The notes below the pieces were generated by a model that did not search any database, was not told where the DNA came from, and saw only the letters and a program-made list of their open reading frames with translations. A stretch of 36,080 nt of DNA from assembly GCA_021158105.1 (NCBI GenBank), contig JAGGVH010000035.1, forward strand, positions 1-36,080. Direction: 5' to 3'. Positions within the stretch are counted from its first letter, which is position 1; each line of letters starts with the position of its first letter. This stretch comes from Microcaldota archaeon (GTDB taxonomy: Archaea > Micrarchaeota > Micrarchaeia > Anstonellales > JAGGVH01). Made by a program: the position numbers and the translations under genes. Below, piece after piece: positions 4,974 to 16,433 of the stretch.

Positions 4974-6575
4974 TTATATATTTTTTATAAATTCAAATGT
5001 TGCATCAGACCATAGCTGTGCAGGACAACCACATTGTCTCATTGTTGAAGGTTCAACAAGTTCTGAGATATGATTTATACATCTTTCATTTTTCATTGTC
5101 TCAAACTCTTTTTTGACCTTTTTAGAATTTTGTTTATCAAATACTTTGAACCTTTTCATAACTTTAATATAAGGCATTAATAACCATGGCCAAATCGCGC
5201 CTCTATGGTACGCCTCATCTCTCTTTGATTGGTCTCCTTGGTAATATTTGTGAAATCTTTTGCTATTTGGATGAAGTGAATAAATGCCTCTTGGTGTAAA
5301 GAATTCCTGCATTCTTTTAACTATATATTTATCCATTGCTTTTAGGGGAGTAACATATTGTAAAGCAATGATAAAGTTTGGACGGTTTTCGTTTTCTTCT
5401 TTGTCTTCATCATTCATAGGCTCAAGCACGTCTTTTATTCCATTCCTCCCAAAAAATTTAGTTAATGACTTTTCTATCTTGTTAAGAAATGGGAACGGTT
5501 CGCCACCATTTCCCTCAGCAAAGAGATTAAACAGTCTTATTGCTTCATACCAATATGCATTTATTTCAATAGGTTTTCCTCTCCTGTCTATTGTGTCCAT
5601 CCAGGTAAGTTTAGGCTGCAACACTTTAATTAAATAATCATTATCCATCTTGTATCTTTCTGTCCCGTTTATGTATGATAACAACATTTTTTTGGCAGTG
5701 TCCAACCCCTTTTCTTTTTCAAACTTTAGAAGATTTATTACAAACAATAATCCCGTGTCTGCTGCATTGCTCCCTTTTCCTATTATGTTAGGAACTCCTC
5801 CTTTATTTGTGTTCATATAACTTTTTAATTTTTCAATATACATCTTTTTTGTTTTGTTATCAAAAAGACCAAATGAAACCATTACATCCCTGACATAATC
5901 ATCAAACCATGGTAATCCTGCCAAAATCTCATCATTCAACCTATAATAATCATACCATTTTTTTACTGATGTGCTTTCCCACGGGAACAATATTTTTGCG
6001 TTATTTCTAAATACCAATTCAGTAAAAGAAGTCATCAATTCCTTATCCCCATACCCCCTAACTTTTTCTGTTGGGTAACGTATCACAGTGACAGTTTTTT
6101 TGTTTATTTTATTTTTAGCTTCTTCTGATTTAAAATAAACTGGTTCATCCAATGCATTTTTTCTTAAAGAATGAATATTTCGCATGACAAAAAACGGTTT
6201 TATTTTTAGTATAACATTCTTTGGTAGTTTATATGTCACATAAACTTTGTTAGTGACGTGTATACTTCTTTCTATAACTTTTTTATCCAAAAAGAACTTA
6301 TGTGTTATATAATCTTTTCCAAGGATAATTTTATGCGGCAATATACATTCAGAATGATACTTATCATCATACCAACTACTAAGAGGCATTCTTTTTTTAT
6401 TGTATGTGACTGAATCTCCAAGTGACATTAACGTTATTTTTCCACCTATTCTCAAGCCATGATATTTTCTTCTTGGGATTAATGATAATGTATTAAACAA
6501 TTTCACATCTTTACCTATGACAAACTCCCTATCATCCCTGACAACTTTATTTTCAGATTCCCAAATCACATTCAT
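4974..6575 (-). CDS. Glycogen debranching enzyme, archaeal type (amylo-alpha-1,6-glucosidase)
   Basis: 533 aa. Such enzymes hydrolyse alpha-1,6 branch residues of glycogen-like polymers in the cytosol. The N-terminal domain carries the family motif RRKYHGL. The C-terminal (alpha/alpha)6 barrel has GLPWFDDYVRDVM (family: G-PWF-D-GRD), a conserved KLTWMD, DEAYHRGAIWPWL (family: RGTVWPWL) and AQLWSDATFEF near the end. It is somewhat shorter than the usual ~570-650 aa. ATG 6575 is chosen because GGTGA at 6583-6587 lies 7 nt before it and the TATA (6611-6618) puts the transcript start just at that site, downstream of the alternative ATG 6593. With GAPDH and Por it suggests stored polyglucan use. 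Confidence 0.85.
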   Translation of the reverse strand: MNVIWESENKVVRDDREFVIGKDVKLFNTLSLIPRRKYHGLRIGGKITLMSLGDSVTYNKKRMPLSSWYDDKYHSECILPHKIILGKDYITHKFFLDKKVIERSIHVTNKVYVTYKLPKNVILKIKPFFVMRNIHSLRKNALDEPVYFKSEEAKNKINKKTVTVIRYPTEKVRGYGDKELMTSFTELVFRNNAKILFPWESTSVKKWYDYYRLNDEILAGLPWFDDYVRDVMVSFGLFDNKTKKMYIEKLKSYMNTNKGGVPNIIGKGSNAADTGLLFVINLLKFEKEKGLDTAKKMLLSYINGTERYKMDNDYLIKVLQPKLTWMDTIDRRGKPIEINAYWYEAIRLFNLFAEGNGGEPFPFLNKIEKSLTKFFGRNGIKDVLEPMNDEDKEENENRPNFIIALQYVTPLKAMDKYIVKRMQEFFTPRGIYSLHPNSKRFHKYYQGDQSKRDEAYHRGAIWPWLLMPYIKVMKRFKVFDKQNSKKVKKEFETMKNERCINHISELVEPSTMRQCGCPAQLWSDATFEFIKNI

Positions 6576-6610
6576 ATTTTTGTCACCATTCATGTTTACA
6601 TCCCGATGCT

Positions 6611-6618
6611 TATAAAAA
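6611..6618 (-). promoter_or_regulatory. TATA box for the debranching enzyme gene
   Basis: TTTTTATA on minus is centred at 6614.5. The predicted start near 6588 is adjacent to GGTGA (6583-6587), giving a leader of about 12 nt. Confidence 0.5.
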
Positions 6619-6627
6619 TTGGTTTTG

Positions 6628-6635
6628 TTTATAAG
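6628..6635 (+). promoter_or_regulatory. TATA box for hjc
   Basis: TTTATAAG is centred at 6631.5; 26.5 nt downstream is 6658, inside the GGTGAT (6657-6662) that precedes the TTG start of hjc. Confidence 0.5.
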
Positions 6636-6665
6636 TCTTACTAACGATATTAAACTGGTGATTGT

Positions 6666-7037
6666 TTGTATAATAAAGGTGCGAATGCAGAAAGAGAACT
6701 TATCAGAATGTTTTCCAATAAAGGATACAGAGTAATCCGCGCCGCAGGTTCTGGTGTCAATTCCCTGTCGCCAGACATATTAGTTTTTAGTCATGGTGCA
6801 TACTATGGTTTTGAATGTAAGGCATGGAAAAAGAAAAATCTTAGTATTTCAAAGGAGCAGTTTGAGAGATTAAAGAAATGGAATGATGATACAGGAATAA
6901 TTGTAATGGTTGCATGGAAAATCCCAAGAAAAGGATGGAGGTTCATTCCTTTAAACATGTTTAAAGAAACCGGGAAGGCATACAGCATCAACCTTGAAAC
7001 TGCAATGAAAATGTTGGATTTTGAAGCAATAGTTTAG
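6666..7037 (+). CDS. hjc: Holliday junction resolvase Hjc (TTG start)
   Basis: 123 aa, normal for archaeal Hjc, a dimeric endonuclease that cuts four-way junctions during recombination and replication restart. The restriction-endonuclease-like active site is complete: Glu9 in GANAERELI, Asp37 in SPDILV, Glu50 and Lys52 in YGFECKAWKK, with the RAAGSG loop before Asp37. The start is TTG 6666: GGTGAT is followed by a 3-nt spacer and TTG, the same geometry used at ATG starts elsewhere in the window, and the frame lacks an earlier ATG. Two small genes follow on the same strand, but they look unrelated in function. Confidence 0.93.
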   Translation: MYNKGANAERELIRMFSNKGYRVIRAAGSGVNSLSPDILVFSHGAYYGFECKAWKKKNLSISKEQFERLKKWNDDTGIIVMVAWKIPRKGWRFIPLNMFKETGKAYSINLETAMKMLDFEAIV

Positions 7038-7056
7038 GTCTAAAGGGTGTTAACAT

Positions 7057-7329
7057 ATGAAGAAGTATGTTTACCTTTTATTTTTCACAATTTTTCTTGT
7101 TATTTTATACTCTTATTCAGAAACGTACGCCCCCTCTTCCTTATGCAACCTGTCAAAAAACTTTAGAGTTTCAGGACAGGTTGTTTCAATAATCAAAATG
7201 GAGGATGGTTATAAGATAAAAGTTTGTGATTTGGATTGTTGTAAGGCATTATACATTGATGAATTCATCATGCCGGGCGAACATGTTGTATTGTGTGGCC
7301 ATGAAAATAGAAAAGTTAAAAGGTGTTGA
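7057..7329 (+). CDS. Small secreted or membrane-anchored OB-fold-like protein
   Basis: 90 aa. An N-terminal hydrophobic helix (residues ~4-19) acts as signal peptide or anchor. The rest resembles a short beta-barrel: FRVSGQVVSIIKMEDGY, IKVCDLDCC, then PGEHVVLCGHE, the strand-turn order of nucleic-acid/ligand-binding OB folds. Four to six cysteines outside the membrane helix (CDLDCC, C near the end) could form disulfides or bind metal. The start follows a GGGTGTTAAC Shine-Dalgarno, 19 nt after hjc. The fold is an inference from pattern only; the partner or ligand is unknown. Confidence 0.6.
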   Translation: MKKYVYLLFFTIFLVILYSYSETYAPSSLCNLSKNFRVSGQVVSIIKMEDGYKIKVCDLDCCKALYIDEFIMPGEHVVLCGHENRKVKRC

Positions 7330-7363
7330 TATAGACATGTAAATTATTTTTAATGGTGTAATC

Positions 7364-8467
7364 ATGATTGACATCATCATTGGTATTATTTTAGGAATTA
7401 TTTCTTCTATTCTTCCGGGTGTACACATAAATACAGTCGCGCAAATTTTCTCAGAGGCAGTGTCATCTGAAGCAATGTTGATTGGCATTGGAATATTTTC
7501 AGTTTTAGGAGTTTTACCATCAGTCTTTTTAGGCGTGCCCGATAGCAGCACAATCGGCTCATACTTTCCTATCCAAAAGATGATGCAAAACGGCGAGCTC
7601 AAAAAGGGAATAATTTTGATAGTCCTGTCTGCATTGTTCTCATCACTCTTGGCAGTCACCATAATAAACATTTATCCAACACTGGTTACTGGTTCTTATG
7701 CAATGGTTAAAGGAACGATTCCTTATGTTTTAGGTTTATTCATTGTGTATAGTCTAATATTTAATGGCTGGTGGGACAGGGTTATAATCATATTATCAGG
7801 AATATTGGGAATGGTATTGTTCAATCTGCCCATTTCAAATGTCCTTTTACCGACGTTTGCAGGAATGTACGCAGTACCTTTCCTGTTATCATCCTTTTCA
7901 CAAGGACAGTCATATCCCAAACAGTATGATAAACCTGTTAAATTTCCATACTTTTTTATGTTGCTCGGGACAATTTTGGGGTTTGTTGCCGCGCTACTCC
8001 CCGCAATATCATCACCCGCCCAGTTGGCAATACTTGTAACTCCATTCTTAAACTCATCATCATCTTTTCTTGTGTTAAGCACGTCCATACTTGTATCAAA
8101 ATATATTTTTGCCGTCCCCATGGCTGTGGAGCTTGGGAAACCCAGGATTGGTGCATACAGTTTTATAACTTTTCCAGATTATGGGTGGTTGTTTGTATTG
8201 TTTGGGGTTTCGATAGGTGCCACCGTAATCTATTTTGTGTCTGATAAGTTGTCCAAGTTAAGATTGGACCAACAAACTGTCAAATATATAACGATAATTC
8301 TCATATTTTACCTAATGTTGCTAACATTCTTACTCCAGAATTGGATAGGGTTGGTAGTATTTTTGGCATCATCATGCCTTGGTATGTTTGCACAATCAGT
8401 AAACACTAAAAAAACAAATCTTATGAATGTGATAATCATTCCAACATTTCTCAGATTTATCATATGA
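7364..8467 (+). CDS. TctA-like (COG1784/DUF112) archaeal multi-pass membrane protein
   Basis: 367 aa, almost entirely hydrophobic, with about 9-10 membrane segments. The N-terminus GIILGIISSILPGVHINTVA carries the Gly-rich helix and PG-[VI]-H-x-N signature of the archaeal TctA-like family, related to the large permease subunit of tripartite tricarboxylate transporters. A second internal PAISSPAQLAIL segment may be the symmetrical half. No TctB or solute-binding TctC partner is nearby, so the substrate is unknown. The start is supported by GGTGTAATC before ATG. The stop abuts the convergent KaiC-like gene with no spacer. Confidence 0.75.
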   Translation: MIDIIIGIILGIISSILPGVHINTVAQIFSEAVSSEAMLIGIGIFSVLGVLPSVFLGVPDSSTIGSYFPIQKMMQNGELKKGIILIVLSALFSSLLAVTIINIYPTLVTGSYAMVKGTIPYVLGLFIVYSLIFNGWWDRVIIILSGILGMVLFNLPISNVLLPTFAGMYAVPFLLSSFSQGQSYPKQYDKPVKFPYFFMLLGTILGFVAALLPAISSPAQLAILVTPFLNSSSSFLVLSTSILVSKYIFAVPMAVELGKPRIGAYSFITFPDYGWLFVLFGVSIGATVIYFVSDKLSKLRLDQQTVKYITIILIFYLMLLTFLLQNWIGLVVFLASSCLGMFAQSVNTKKTNLMNVIIIPTFLRFII

Positions 8468-13786: not shown

Positions 13787-14737
13787 ATGAACCAGTTTAT
13801 GCAACATATCTTTTCCCTTAGGGAAAAATGTTTAAGATCTTGTGACAACTTTGAGAAGATTACTCTGGAACGGTCTCAAGTGAACTTAGTGATAGGTGCA
13901 GTTGACAGTGGAATGATTGCAAAAGAATTTATGGGGTTTGACATAATATCTTTGCGTGCAATAGGTGGCCTATATTCTTACAATAATGATAATCTTACTA
14001 ATGTTTCATATTACCCTTCTAAATACCCAAATCCAGAAATGATTTTTGTTCATGGCAGTGAAAAAGATTATAGTTTTAAGAAGCGTTCAATCATAAGATT
14101 AACGAGTGAACTTAAGATTGCTAACATTCTTGCTGAAGAACACCATCCAGACATTATACTGCTCGATGGTTCTGTTGCTCCATTGCCCTGCGACAAACCG
14201 TCTGAAAGTGATGATGAAGCATTTGATTCATACAATCGTTTGATAGAATTGTATAAATCTTTGTATAAAACATGTTATGAAAAAGGAATAAATCTTGCGG
14301 GCATTGTTAAGGATACACGTGGCAGAGTGTTTCTGAACAACATGAAACACTTAAATCTTCCTGAAAATATTAATGACATCTTTTTTCTTAATGTATGTTT
14401 ATCAAAAGGCGAGATGGTTAAACCTATTTTATACGGTGCAGGAACCCACCCCACAATTGAAGATATTTCTCTACCGTGGCCAATAAAAGTTACATACATG
14501 TCACCTTCAGAATATGATTCAGTGTTGCGTGTAGAGATCGTTGAGTTTAATGATGATTCTGTTAAGACGTTTAATGATGTTTATAACTTATCTTCTATGA
14601 GTAACAAGTTTGCGTATCCTCCTCCCCTGATTGATATTGATTTGCATGCGCGTTTGAGAAGTGAGGATCTTCTATTTTTAGATAACCAGTCAAAACTTAT
14701 GGGGCTGATCAAGCGTAGAAACAGGAGGCCTTTTTAA
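13787..14737 (+). CDS. nurA: NurA domain nuclease
   Basis: 316 aa. NurA is a Mn-dependent 5'-3' nuclease that works with the HerA translocase in DNA end resection. Three metal-site blocks are visible in order: AVDSGMIAKEF (~residues 38-48), ILLDGSVAPLP (~125-135) and GIVKDTRG (~172-179). The C-terminal region ends in a basic tail. HerA, Mre11 and Rad50 are not adjacent; instead nurA is the last gene of the pilin/GAPDH operon, 1 nt after gap. The stop lies only 4 nt from the 3' end of the convergent tRNA-Glu. Sequence identity to known NurA is moderate judging by eye. Confidence 0.78.
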   Translation: MNQFMQHIFSLREKCLRSCDNFEKITLERSQVNLVIGAVDSGMIAKEFMGFDIISLRAIGGLYSYNNDNLTNVSYYPSKYPNPEMIFVHGSEKDYSFKKRSIIRLTSELKIANILAEEHHPDIILLDGSVAPLPCDKPSESDDEAFDSYNRLIELYKSLYKTCYEKGINLAGIVKDTRGRVFLNNMKHLNLPENINDIFFLNVCLSKGEMVKPILYGAGTHPTIEDISLPWPIKVTYMSPSEYDSVLRVEIVEFNDDSVKTFNDVYNLSSMSNKFAYPPPLIDIDLHARLRSEDLLFLDNQSKLMGLIKRRNRRPF

Positions 14738-14741
14738 GATG

Positions 14742-14855
14742 TGCTCCGGTCGGGATTCTTAGGCAACCTATTTTCTCCTTTGAAAGAAAAAAGGTCGGAA
14801 CCCGAGTCCCCAGGGTGAAAGCCTGATATCCTTGACCGGACTAGACGACCGGAGC
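14742..14855 (-). tRNA. tRNA-Glu (anticodon UUC) with 39-nt T-loop intron
   Basis: Read on minus from 14855. Acceptor GCTCCGG pairs with CCGGAGC at 14743-14749. The D-arm contains AGTCCGGTCAA; the anticodon arm TCAGG-CTTTCAC-CCTGG gives anticodon TTC; the T-stem is TCGGG/CCCGA. The T-loop is split: exon 1 (14798-14855) ends TTC, a 39-nt intron (14759-14797) follows, and exon 2 (14742-14758) begins GAAT, restoring TTCGAAT with the insertion between positions 56 and 57. The mature tRNA is 75 nt with discriminator A; CCA is not encoded. Splice sites fit bulge-helix-bulge geometry: exon GGGT pairs with intron GCCT (two G-C plus two G-U), with 3-nt bulges TC^C and AA^G, and an intron helix GACCT/AGGTT. 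Confidence 0.93.
14759..14797 (-). other. Noncanonical archaeal tRNA intron (position 56/57)
   Basis: 39 nt starting CGACCT and ending GCCTAA. It folds as a hairpin (GACCT/AGGTT extended by TTTTCT/AGAAAA). The junction is unique: no shift of the boundaries restores TTCGAAT. T-loop introns need a splicing endonuclease with broad substrate range. Confidence 0.85.
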
Positions 14856-14884
14856 GAGATGTAAACAATTAGTGTCCCAAAAAC

Positions 14885-14892
14885 TTTTAAAA
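14885..14892. promoter_or_regulatory. Palindromic TATA box between tRNA-Glu and TPR gene
   Basis: TTTTAAAA, a perfect palindrome centred at 14888.5. On minus, 26.5 nt reaches ~14862, 7 nt before the tRNA 5' end. On plus, ATG 14913 is ~24.5 nt away, so the TPR mRNA is likely leaderless. Confidence 0.6.
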
Positions 14893-14912: not shown

Positions 14913-15437
14913 ATGGCTGGATTAAAAGAAGCAATATCATTAATAGATAATAAAGAATATGATAAGGCAAAAAGGATATTGAATAAGTTAATTTCAAAGA
15001 AAACTCCGCTTACAACTCGCCTCATAGCAATGGTGTTGTTAGCTAACGTGTTGAAGGTTGAAGGCAAATATAGCAAACTTTCAAACCTTTATGATAAAAT
15101 ATTAGAATACCTCCCATCATATCAAATATACATGAATGCTGGTGCAAACAGGTTTTTGATGGGTGATTATAAAAAAGCAATAAAGATGTATATTAAATCT
15201 GCAAAGTTGGCAAAGAATGACACTGACAAAATCACTGCATTGATTTATGGTGTTATAGGATATTTATTGATTGACGACATAAAGAATGGAAAGAAATTGT
15301 ATTCACAAGCTGAAAAAATCAGTAAACTGAAATCTAAGAAGATTTTGACTGCAATAATAAAAGACATTTTTTCAAAGAATAAGAATGTCCCCCCCACGCA
15401 CAAGGATAAAATATTAAGTCTGCTTTCTAAATTATGA
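14913..15437 (+). CDS. TPR-like repeat protein
   Basis: 174 aa, all helical. Helix pairs resemble tetratricopeptide repeats: KEYDKAKRILNKLI (15-28), a TRLIAMVLLANVLKVEGKYSKL pair, ILEYLPSYQIYMNAGANRFLMGDYKKAIKMYIKSAKLA (the best TPR match, with the A/G and Y/A positions) and KITALIYGVIGYLLIDDIKNGKKLYSQAEK. Such repeats mediate protein-protein contacts. It has no signal peptide, so it is cytosolic. It precedes the tandem Lrp-like regulator by only a few bases, so the two are probably co-transcribed from the palindromic TATA box. The target is unknown. Confidence 0.7.
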   Translation: MAGLKEAISLIDNKEYDKAKRILNKLISKKTPLTTRLIAMVLLANVLKVEGKYSKLSNLYDKILEYLPSYQIYMNAGANRFLMGDYKKAIKMYIKSAKLAKNDTDKITALIYGVIGYLLIDDIKNGKKLYSQAEKISKLKSKKILTAIIKDIFSKNKNVPPTHKDKILSLLSKL

Positions 15438-15446
15438 GTGATTAGG

Positions 15447-16433
15447 ATGAGTACTTCTCGTTTGGATGAGAAAGGGAAAAAGATTTTAAAAGGATTAAGG
15501 TTTAACGCCCGTATCTCACTGACTCAGCTTGCAAAGAATGCAGGCATTAGCAAGGAAACATTGAATTATAGGTTAAGAAGTATGGAAGAGAAAGGATTAA
15601 TTTCGCGATACTTCCCGGAACTTAATGTGTATAAAATGGGATTGACAATATTTAGAGTGGCATTAAAGTTAAAGAATATTGATGAAGAATTAGAAAATAG
15701 GTTTGAGGAATATTTGAGTACAATTCCAACTATTTGGGTTGGCTATCTTTATGGCGAATGGGATATATTGTTCGGTGTAATGGTTCATAATCCTTTAGAA
15801 TTTGATAAATATATAAATGAAATCATGCAGAAATTTGGGCAACATATATCTGAGAAGGCGATAGGGATACAGATTAATGATTTCTTTTTGGATTATGATT
15901 ATATATATGGTAAAAGTTTAAGAAGAAATAGTTTACAATTGTATGATAACGAGGCATGTTCAGTCATCACATTAGACAGTAAAGATAAAAAAATCATTGC
16001 ATTGTTGTACAACAATGCTCGTCAGTCATACTTTGAAATTTCTAAGCAGTTGTCAATGTCTCCAGAAACTGTTAAAAGAAGAATAAAGGCTTTAGAAAAC
16101 AGTGGAATAATAAAGAGATATCTCACATCAATAAACCGTATGCCGCTTGGTTATAAAAAGTATAAAGTGTTGTTATATGTCAACAACTTTTCATTAAAAA
16201 ACAAAAAGGATTTATTGAATTATTGTTTTAATACTCCCAACATCACACATGTCACTACCACAACAGGGTCATGGGACCTTGAGATTGATTATGATGCAAC
16301 TACGTTGACAGAGTTCCATACATTGTTTAGGCAATTGCGAAACAGATTTTCTTCACAGATAACTGACTATTCAGTCTTGGCAAACTATAAGTATCAGTAT
16401 ATTAATCCTTTTGAGTCGCGGTTCAGATTATAG
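15447..16433 (+). CDS. Tandem Lrp/AsnC-like transcription regulator
   Basis: 328 aa built from two copies of an Lrp-like unit. Copy 1 has a helix-turn-helix (LDEKGKKILKGLRFNARISLTQLAKNAGIS... up to ~60) and an effector-type beta-alpha region with VGYLYGEWDILFGVMV. Copy 2 has LDSKDKKIIALLYNNARQSYFEISKQLSMSPETVKRRIKALENSGII and VTTTTGSWDLEIDYDA. Each HTH ends with the R[IL]-x-x-[ML]E-x-x-G-[IL]I recognition helix. Single-unit Lrp proteins dimerise; the fusion may be a built-in dimer. Lrp-like fold proteins also include siroheme decarboxylases, but no heme genes are near. ATG 15447 is preferred over GTG 15438. It overlaps the small convergent membrane gene by 11 bases. Confidence 0.8.
   Translation: MSTSRLDEKGKKILKGLRFNARISLTQLAKNAGISKETLNYRLRSMEEKGLISRYFPELNVYKMGLTIFRVALKLKNIDEELENRFEEYLSTIPTIWVGYLYGEWDILFGVMVHNPLEFDKYINEIMQKFGQHISEKAIGIQINDFFLDYDYIYGKSLRRNSLQLYDNEACSVITLDSKDKKIIALLYNNARQSYFEISKQLSMSPETVKRRIKALENSGIIKRYLTSINRMPLGYKKYKVLLYVNNFSLKNKKDLLNYCFNTPNITHVTTTTGSWDLEIDYDATTLTEFHTLFRQLRNRFSSQITDYSVLANYKYQYINPFESRFRL

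Follow-up and report, generated by a model that had tools for sequence, protein, structure and literature searches.

The 36-kb stretch of DNA that was analysed (36,080 nt, hereafter the window) very probably carries a functional tRNA-Glu(UUC) gene whose T-loop is interrupted at position 56/57 by a cis-spliced intron of the bulge-helix-bulge (BHB) type, one copy of a recently spread family. The genome (G000) was a metagenome assembly of 0.96 Mb in 50 contigs and was 88.8% complete. tRNA-Glu(UUC) is the reader of glutamate GAA codons. The precursor gene was located on the minus strand at 14742..14855, with G1 at 14855 and A73 at 14742. Direct reading, and ARAGORN after splicing, divided its 114 nt into a 75-nt mature tRNA and a 39-nt intron. 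The 5' exon, G1 to C56 (14798..14855, minus), began with GCTCCGG and ended with GGGTTC directly before the intron. The intron (CGACCTTTTTTCTTTCAAAGGAGAAAATAGGTTGCCTAA; 14759..14797, minus) lay at the C56/G57 junction and was followed by the 3' exon, G57 to A73 (14742..14758, minus), with the minus-strand reading GAATCCCGACCGGAGCA. When the sequence was read with the junction slid by one base, the GTTCGAATC T-loop consensus was spoiled. The anticodon UUC was placed at 14817..14819 (minus) by ARAGORN on the spliced sequence. A TATA-like box, TTTTAAAAG, was found at 14884..14892 (minus), 29-37 nt upstream of G1, and judged by its letters only it may be the promoter element. The initial annotation had proposed a tRNA-Glu(UUC) interrupted in the T-loop at 56/57, and its coordinates for the gene (14855..14742) were exact.

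Tool-based detection was consistent with this anatomy. No tRNA was reported in the 36-kb window by ARAGORN, or by Rfam at gathering threshold, and ARAGORN made no call on the unspliced precursor alone. Once the 39 nt were removed, ARAGORN called tRNA-Glu(ttc), and all stems were paired. These results bore out the earlier claims that the cloverleaf was readable only without the 39 nt and that the gene was hidden from simple scanners. The spliced tRNA was identical at 68/75 positions to the intron-free tRNA-Glu(UUC) of the same-genus genome G001. A search of the genome with the spliced sequence matched only the gene at 14742..14855 and tRNA-Glu(CUC). A second tRNA-Glu(UUC) was therefore not found in the 88.8%-complete genome, and an intact copy may lie on the missing part.

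The splice sites were examined in the folded precursor. An archaeal BHB intron has a 4-bp central helix and 3-nt bulges, with cleavage after the second bulge base. Here, the 5' strand of the central helix was G51 G52 G53 U54 (14800..14803, minus) and the 3' strand was the intron GCCU (14761..14764, minus), with a probability of 0.45-0.83 per pair. Across the intron family, the GCCU strand varied between G and A and between U and C, and pairing was kept. Sequence and fold placed the 5' bulge, U55 C56^C, at 14797..14799 (minus) and the 3' bulge, AA^G57, at 14758..14760 (minus), each with its splice site after the second base. The BHB was the minimum-energy fold of the precursor (z = -4.9 vs 200 shuffles). 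This best fold contained a long intron stem besides the GGGU/GCCU helix with its UC^C and AA^G bulges. Its energy was -49.7 kcal/mol, compared with -45.2 kcal/mol when the T-stem was enforced, which was a cost of 4.5 kcal/mol. The T-stem probability in the unspliced precursor was <=0.005. The BHB and the T-arm were mutually exclusive, and therefore the T-arm should form after splicing only. The outer helix consisted of C50-G57 and U49-A58 only and was followed by a mismatch. The pairing of G57 with C50 in the best fold left a 2-nt 3' bulge, and in sibling introns with A57 this pair was impossible. Because the outer helix was weak and the A57 siblings lacked the C50-G57 pair, the motif common to the family (helix, bulges and intron stem) would be better described as relaxed (HBh'-like) than as strict hBHBh'. 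In the initial annotation, the splice sites had been said to show canonical BHB spacing. The paired splice sites held, but the BHB would be better termed relaxed than canonical.

The splicing enzymes of the genome were typed. Only one match to the splicing endonuclease EndA was found in the genome, and it was a single polypeptide of 379 aa with three units. Its residues 2-379 aligned to residues 5-387 of the ARMAN-2 epsilon2 EndA 4fz2 (E 1.5e-98), and its nearest relatives were proteins of Candidatus Micrarchaeota organisms, from which the lineage was judged to be Micrarchaeota. All seven residues inspected for catalysis or RNA contact were kept: the catalytic Y226, H241 and K272, Y151 and K152 of the ARMAN-specific loop (ASL), and R265 and W376, with roles taken from PMC12397907 and PMC6379350. 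The ARMAN-specific loop is required for EndA activity (PMC12397907). By its end-to-end sequence match, the endonuclease of this genome is assigned to the epsilon2 type of ARMAN-2, which belongs to the broad-specificity class. Acceptance of relaxed BHB motifs has been demonstrated for this class (PMC6379350, PMC12397907), and according to a review, relaxed-motif introns are removed efficiently only by (alpha beta)2 and epsilon2 enzymes (PMC6379350). The initial annotation had stated that T-loop introns need a broad-specificity enzyme and had asked for the endonuclease to be typed. A gene for the RtcB ligase was also present. Within this gene (contig C30, 13900-16900; L172:149-2962, minus), a 937-aa ORF, an intein with a LAGLIDADG-like domain was present in frame.

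We infer that the tRNA-Glu(UUC) precursor is actually cut and joined. In the precursor, GCCU at the 3' end of the intron would pair with G51-U54 of the T-stem, which would create the endonuclease substrate and block folding of the T-arm. The epsilon2 endonuclease would cut after C56 and before G57. RtcB would then join the exons, and the T-stem-loop would be able to form.

Homologous introns were searched for in the same genome. A covariance model, R1, was built from four T-loop introns of G000 (Glu-UUC, Glu-CUC, Arg-UCG and Met). Among these first four introns, three pairs were changed on both sides, and 95.6% of cells were paired vs 47-68% when the alignment was slid. R1 matched at 14752-14803 with E 1.9e-13, with the tRNA-Glu(UUC) intron itself being part of the model. 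Homologous 56/57 introns were present in at least 11 of the 37 tRNA genes located, in a census from Rfam and model searches that may be incomplete. The carriers were Glu-UUC, Glu-CUC, Arg-UCG, Arg-CCU, Arg-UCU, Lys-UUU, Lys-CUU, Met-CAU, Trp-CCA, Ala-UGC and Ala-GGC. Their isotypes were read by hand from the anticodon, and the seven carriers outside the training set were found via R1 or by eye. The intron occurred in 11/20 tRNA genes with a GGGUUC T-arm vs 0/17 others (Fisher p 2e-4). R1 itself begins with GGGUUC, but the general tRNA model served to locate the 17 other genes, which were then inspected by eye. This restriction would be expected if the CC(U/C)AA end of the intron must pair with GGGU. 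By our own reading, in which some isotypes were uncertain, 34/37 located tRNA genes had at least one intron. The Rfam tRNA model was above cut-off at 15 places, vs 37 readable tRNA genes.

Introns of other kinds were observed in these genes. Both tRNA-Lys genes had three introns each (D-arm, anticodon and T-loop), and D-arm introns were seen in tRNA-Tyr and tRNA-Asp as well as in both tRNA-Lys (L027, L025, L091/L097, L099). The tRNA-Ser-CGA of this genome (L021) had a very short T-loop insertion of ~15 nt near 58/59. Two introns in one T-arm (~53/54 and ~58/59), separated by a ~5-nt mini-exon TTCAA, were found in tRNA-Arg-CCG of this genome (L088) and in tRNA-Glu-CUC of G009 (L013). In a longer class of T-loop introns, a 5' pyrimidine arm was followed by a purine arm and, after a spacer, by a second purine arm, which gave two alternative partners for one strand. 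This class was seen on contigs C16, C20 and C2 of G000 (L088, L170 and L169) and at L119, L140, L148, L149, L152 and L157. A twintron reading of the composite introns of 60-91 nt was rejected, as a BHB scan of the G000 copies gave the outer GGGU/GCCU only and no inner BHB.

The similarity of the introns was compared with that of their surroundings. The 86-nt introns of Trp, Lys-UUU and Arg-UCU were 95-97% identical. The exon ends of the same genes were 52-70% identical, and the 3' flanks were at background level (mean 0.58). This pattern is consistent with a homologous family that would have spread recently among tRNA genes with the T-arm GGGUUC. The introns may have been moved by ordinary gene conversion or recombination via the conserved T-arm, instead of an intron-specific route of reverse splicing or transposition, and we consider this a plausible if somewhat doubtful account. 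GGGTTC and AAATCCC, or close variants, were present at the junctions of all carriers, and Ala-UGC and Ala-GGC had exons as well as the intron in common, as this account would have it. In contrast, the similarity among Trp, Lys-UUU and Arg-UCU dropped at the junctions, with ~13 nt of exon in common. The two routes were hardly separated by these data.

The distribution of the family was surveyed in the phylum. R1 matches were obtained in 22/84 genomes of the order at E<=0.01 and in 22/301 genomes of the phylum at E<=0.001. Some of the reverse-strand and weak R1 matches were hairpins outside tRNAs and were left uncounted. When the matched places were read, true tRNA introns at 56/57 were recognised in several families across the order and class. 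Examples were Ser-GGA in G016, G030, G045 and G046, Leu in G021, G024 and G039, and Glu-UUC in G073, and the 56/57 intron of Ser-CGA in G089 was 19 nt. Nearly all of the collected 56/57 introns ended with CC(T/C)AA^. A filter that demanded pairing of H and h' as well as terminal AA yielded 34 distinct introns; the AA at the 3' end of every collected intron was thus filter-required, and pairing percentages on this set are partly circular because the filter required pairing.

The locus was then compared with that of G001. In the window, the tRNA gene had as syntenic markers the convergent NurA nuclease gene (13787..14737, plus; Pfam NurA, E 1.4e-17), the divergent TPR-like gene (14913..15437, plus) and a winged-helix regulator gene (15438..16433, plus). 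G001 kept the order regulator, TPR gene, tRNA-Glu(UUC) and NurA, and NurA was also near tRNA-Glu there, with one extra gene between them. The G001 assembly had 6% contamination; the tRNA-Glu locus was nonetheless syntenic. The syntenic tRNA-Glu(UUC) of G001 was without the intron. T-loop introns were absent from six G001 orthologues (Glu-UUC, Glu-CUC, two Lys, Arg-CCU and Arg-UCU), and different T-loop introns were present at ~58/59 in Ala-UGC, Ser-GCU and a Leu gene of G001. From one unrooted same-genus comparison and the similarity of the introns, gain in G000 would be the simpler reading than loss in G001.

An alternative history was considered in which the ancestor of the genus already had the T-loop introns and G001 lost them precisely. 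The finding of 56/57 introns in further families across the order and class, among them that in tRNA-Glu(UUC) of G073, pointed to an early origin of the position within the phylum. However, the body of the G073 intron was different, and the 95-97% identity between different isoacceptors of G000 exceeded the expectation from separate descent. The six intron-free orthologues of G001 also argued against ancestral presence, and we regard this history as rather unlikely. We infer that the introns of G000 were probably gained by transposition rather than lost in the relative.

A disabled tRNA pseudogene with a random insertion was judged very improbable. The insertion is in the most conserved loop, and the gene was missed by ARAGORN and Rfam, as might be seen for such a relic. 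However, this is the sole Glu-UUC gene that was found, all of its stems were intact once spliced, and the insert belonged to a family of structured introns that occupies this site in 11 tRNA genes, those for Trp, Lys and Met among them. The source is a metagenome assembly, but an assembly or binning artefact can be practically dismissed, since the intron family was on many contigs of the bin and in other genomes and the neighbouring genes were syntenic with G001. Two further candidates were rejected. For a group I intron, Rfam at gathering threshold gave no match anywhere in the window, and 39 nt is far too short. A split or permuted tRNA gene was rejected because both exons were collinear and adjacent.

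A broader origin was considered, in which a larger family of mobile hairpins (CTTTTCTTT...AAAGAAAAG) moves by an RNA route into BHB-capable RNAs and the T-loop introns form its tRNA-targeted branch. We regard this idea as speculative and on balance improbable. Such a family would also occur in anticodon-loop introns, in 23S rRNA inserts and between genes. Its copies would move via reverse splicing with EndA/RtcB chemistry, and the target in the present case would be GGGUUC T-arms. Hairpins of related appearance were observed elsewhere in the genome. The 23S rRNA match (contig C46, ~5360-8035; L111:241-2913) covered 2673 nt for 1551 model positions, which corresponded to ~1.1 kb inserted. These inserts included CTTTCTTT/AAAGAAAG-type hairpins resembling those of the tRNA introns. 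The same pyrimidine/purine hairpins were intergenic at G000:C46:41605-41627 and downstream of tRNA-Leu in L034. No further copy of the hairpin was detected when the rest of the 36-kb window was searched.

The family was compared with known systems. Thermoproteales are known for 56/57 introns, for tRNAs with more than one intron and for intron transposition on a large scale (PMC4090602, PMC4033280); tRNA-Pro(UGG) of Pyrobaculum islandicum, for example, has introns at 25/26, 37/38 and 56/57 (PMC4090602). The present T-loop introns were similar in their 56/57 position and BHB-type splice logic, and Lys-UUU and Lys-CUU likewise had D-arm, anticodon and T-loop introns in one gene. As with the transposed introns of Thermoproteales, near-identical introns occupied one and the same position in tRNAs that differ in identity, here in 11 genes with up to 97% identity. 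In contrast, the present host belongs to Micrarchaeota (DPANN) and has an epsilon2 endonuclease instead of (alpha beta)2, and the intron bodies were pyrimidine/purine hairpins of the Micrarchaeota lineage. The present case also differed in that a single T-loop family was seen within one Micrarchaeota genome, together with an intron-free syntenic counterpart in the genus and the GGGUUC restriction. ARMAN-1 and ARMAN-2, which have been listed with multiple-intron tRNAs (PMC4033280), are of the same phylum and have the same epsilon2 EndA type and multiple introns per tRNA (PMC4033280, PMC6379350, PMC12397907). In the Asgard Atabeyarchaeia and Freyarchaeia, introns were reported in 2024 in 92-95% of tRNA genes, many of them non-canonical (PMC11291895). 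The intron load here (34/37) was comparable, in an unrelated phylum.

A literature search found no report of a T-loop intron family in Micrarchaeota, which is not proof of absence. The present case is a known intron type that has probably spread recently in a DPANN lineage where we found no report of it. Because scanners miss intron-bearing tRNAs (15 by Rfam vs 37 read here), many Micrarchaeota tRNAs go undetected, and claims on completeness and on tRNA absence in DPANN archaea are biased. The lineage is useful for the study of intron mobility, as it combines young near-identical copies, an empty syntenic site, a GGGUUC target rule and an endonuclease type with a solved structure.
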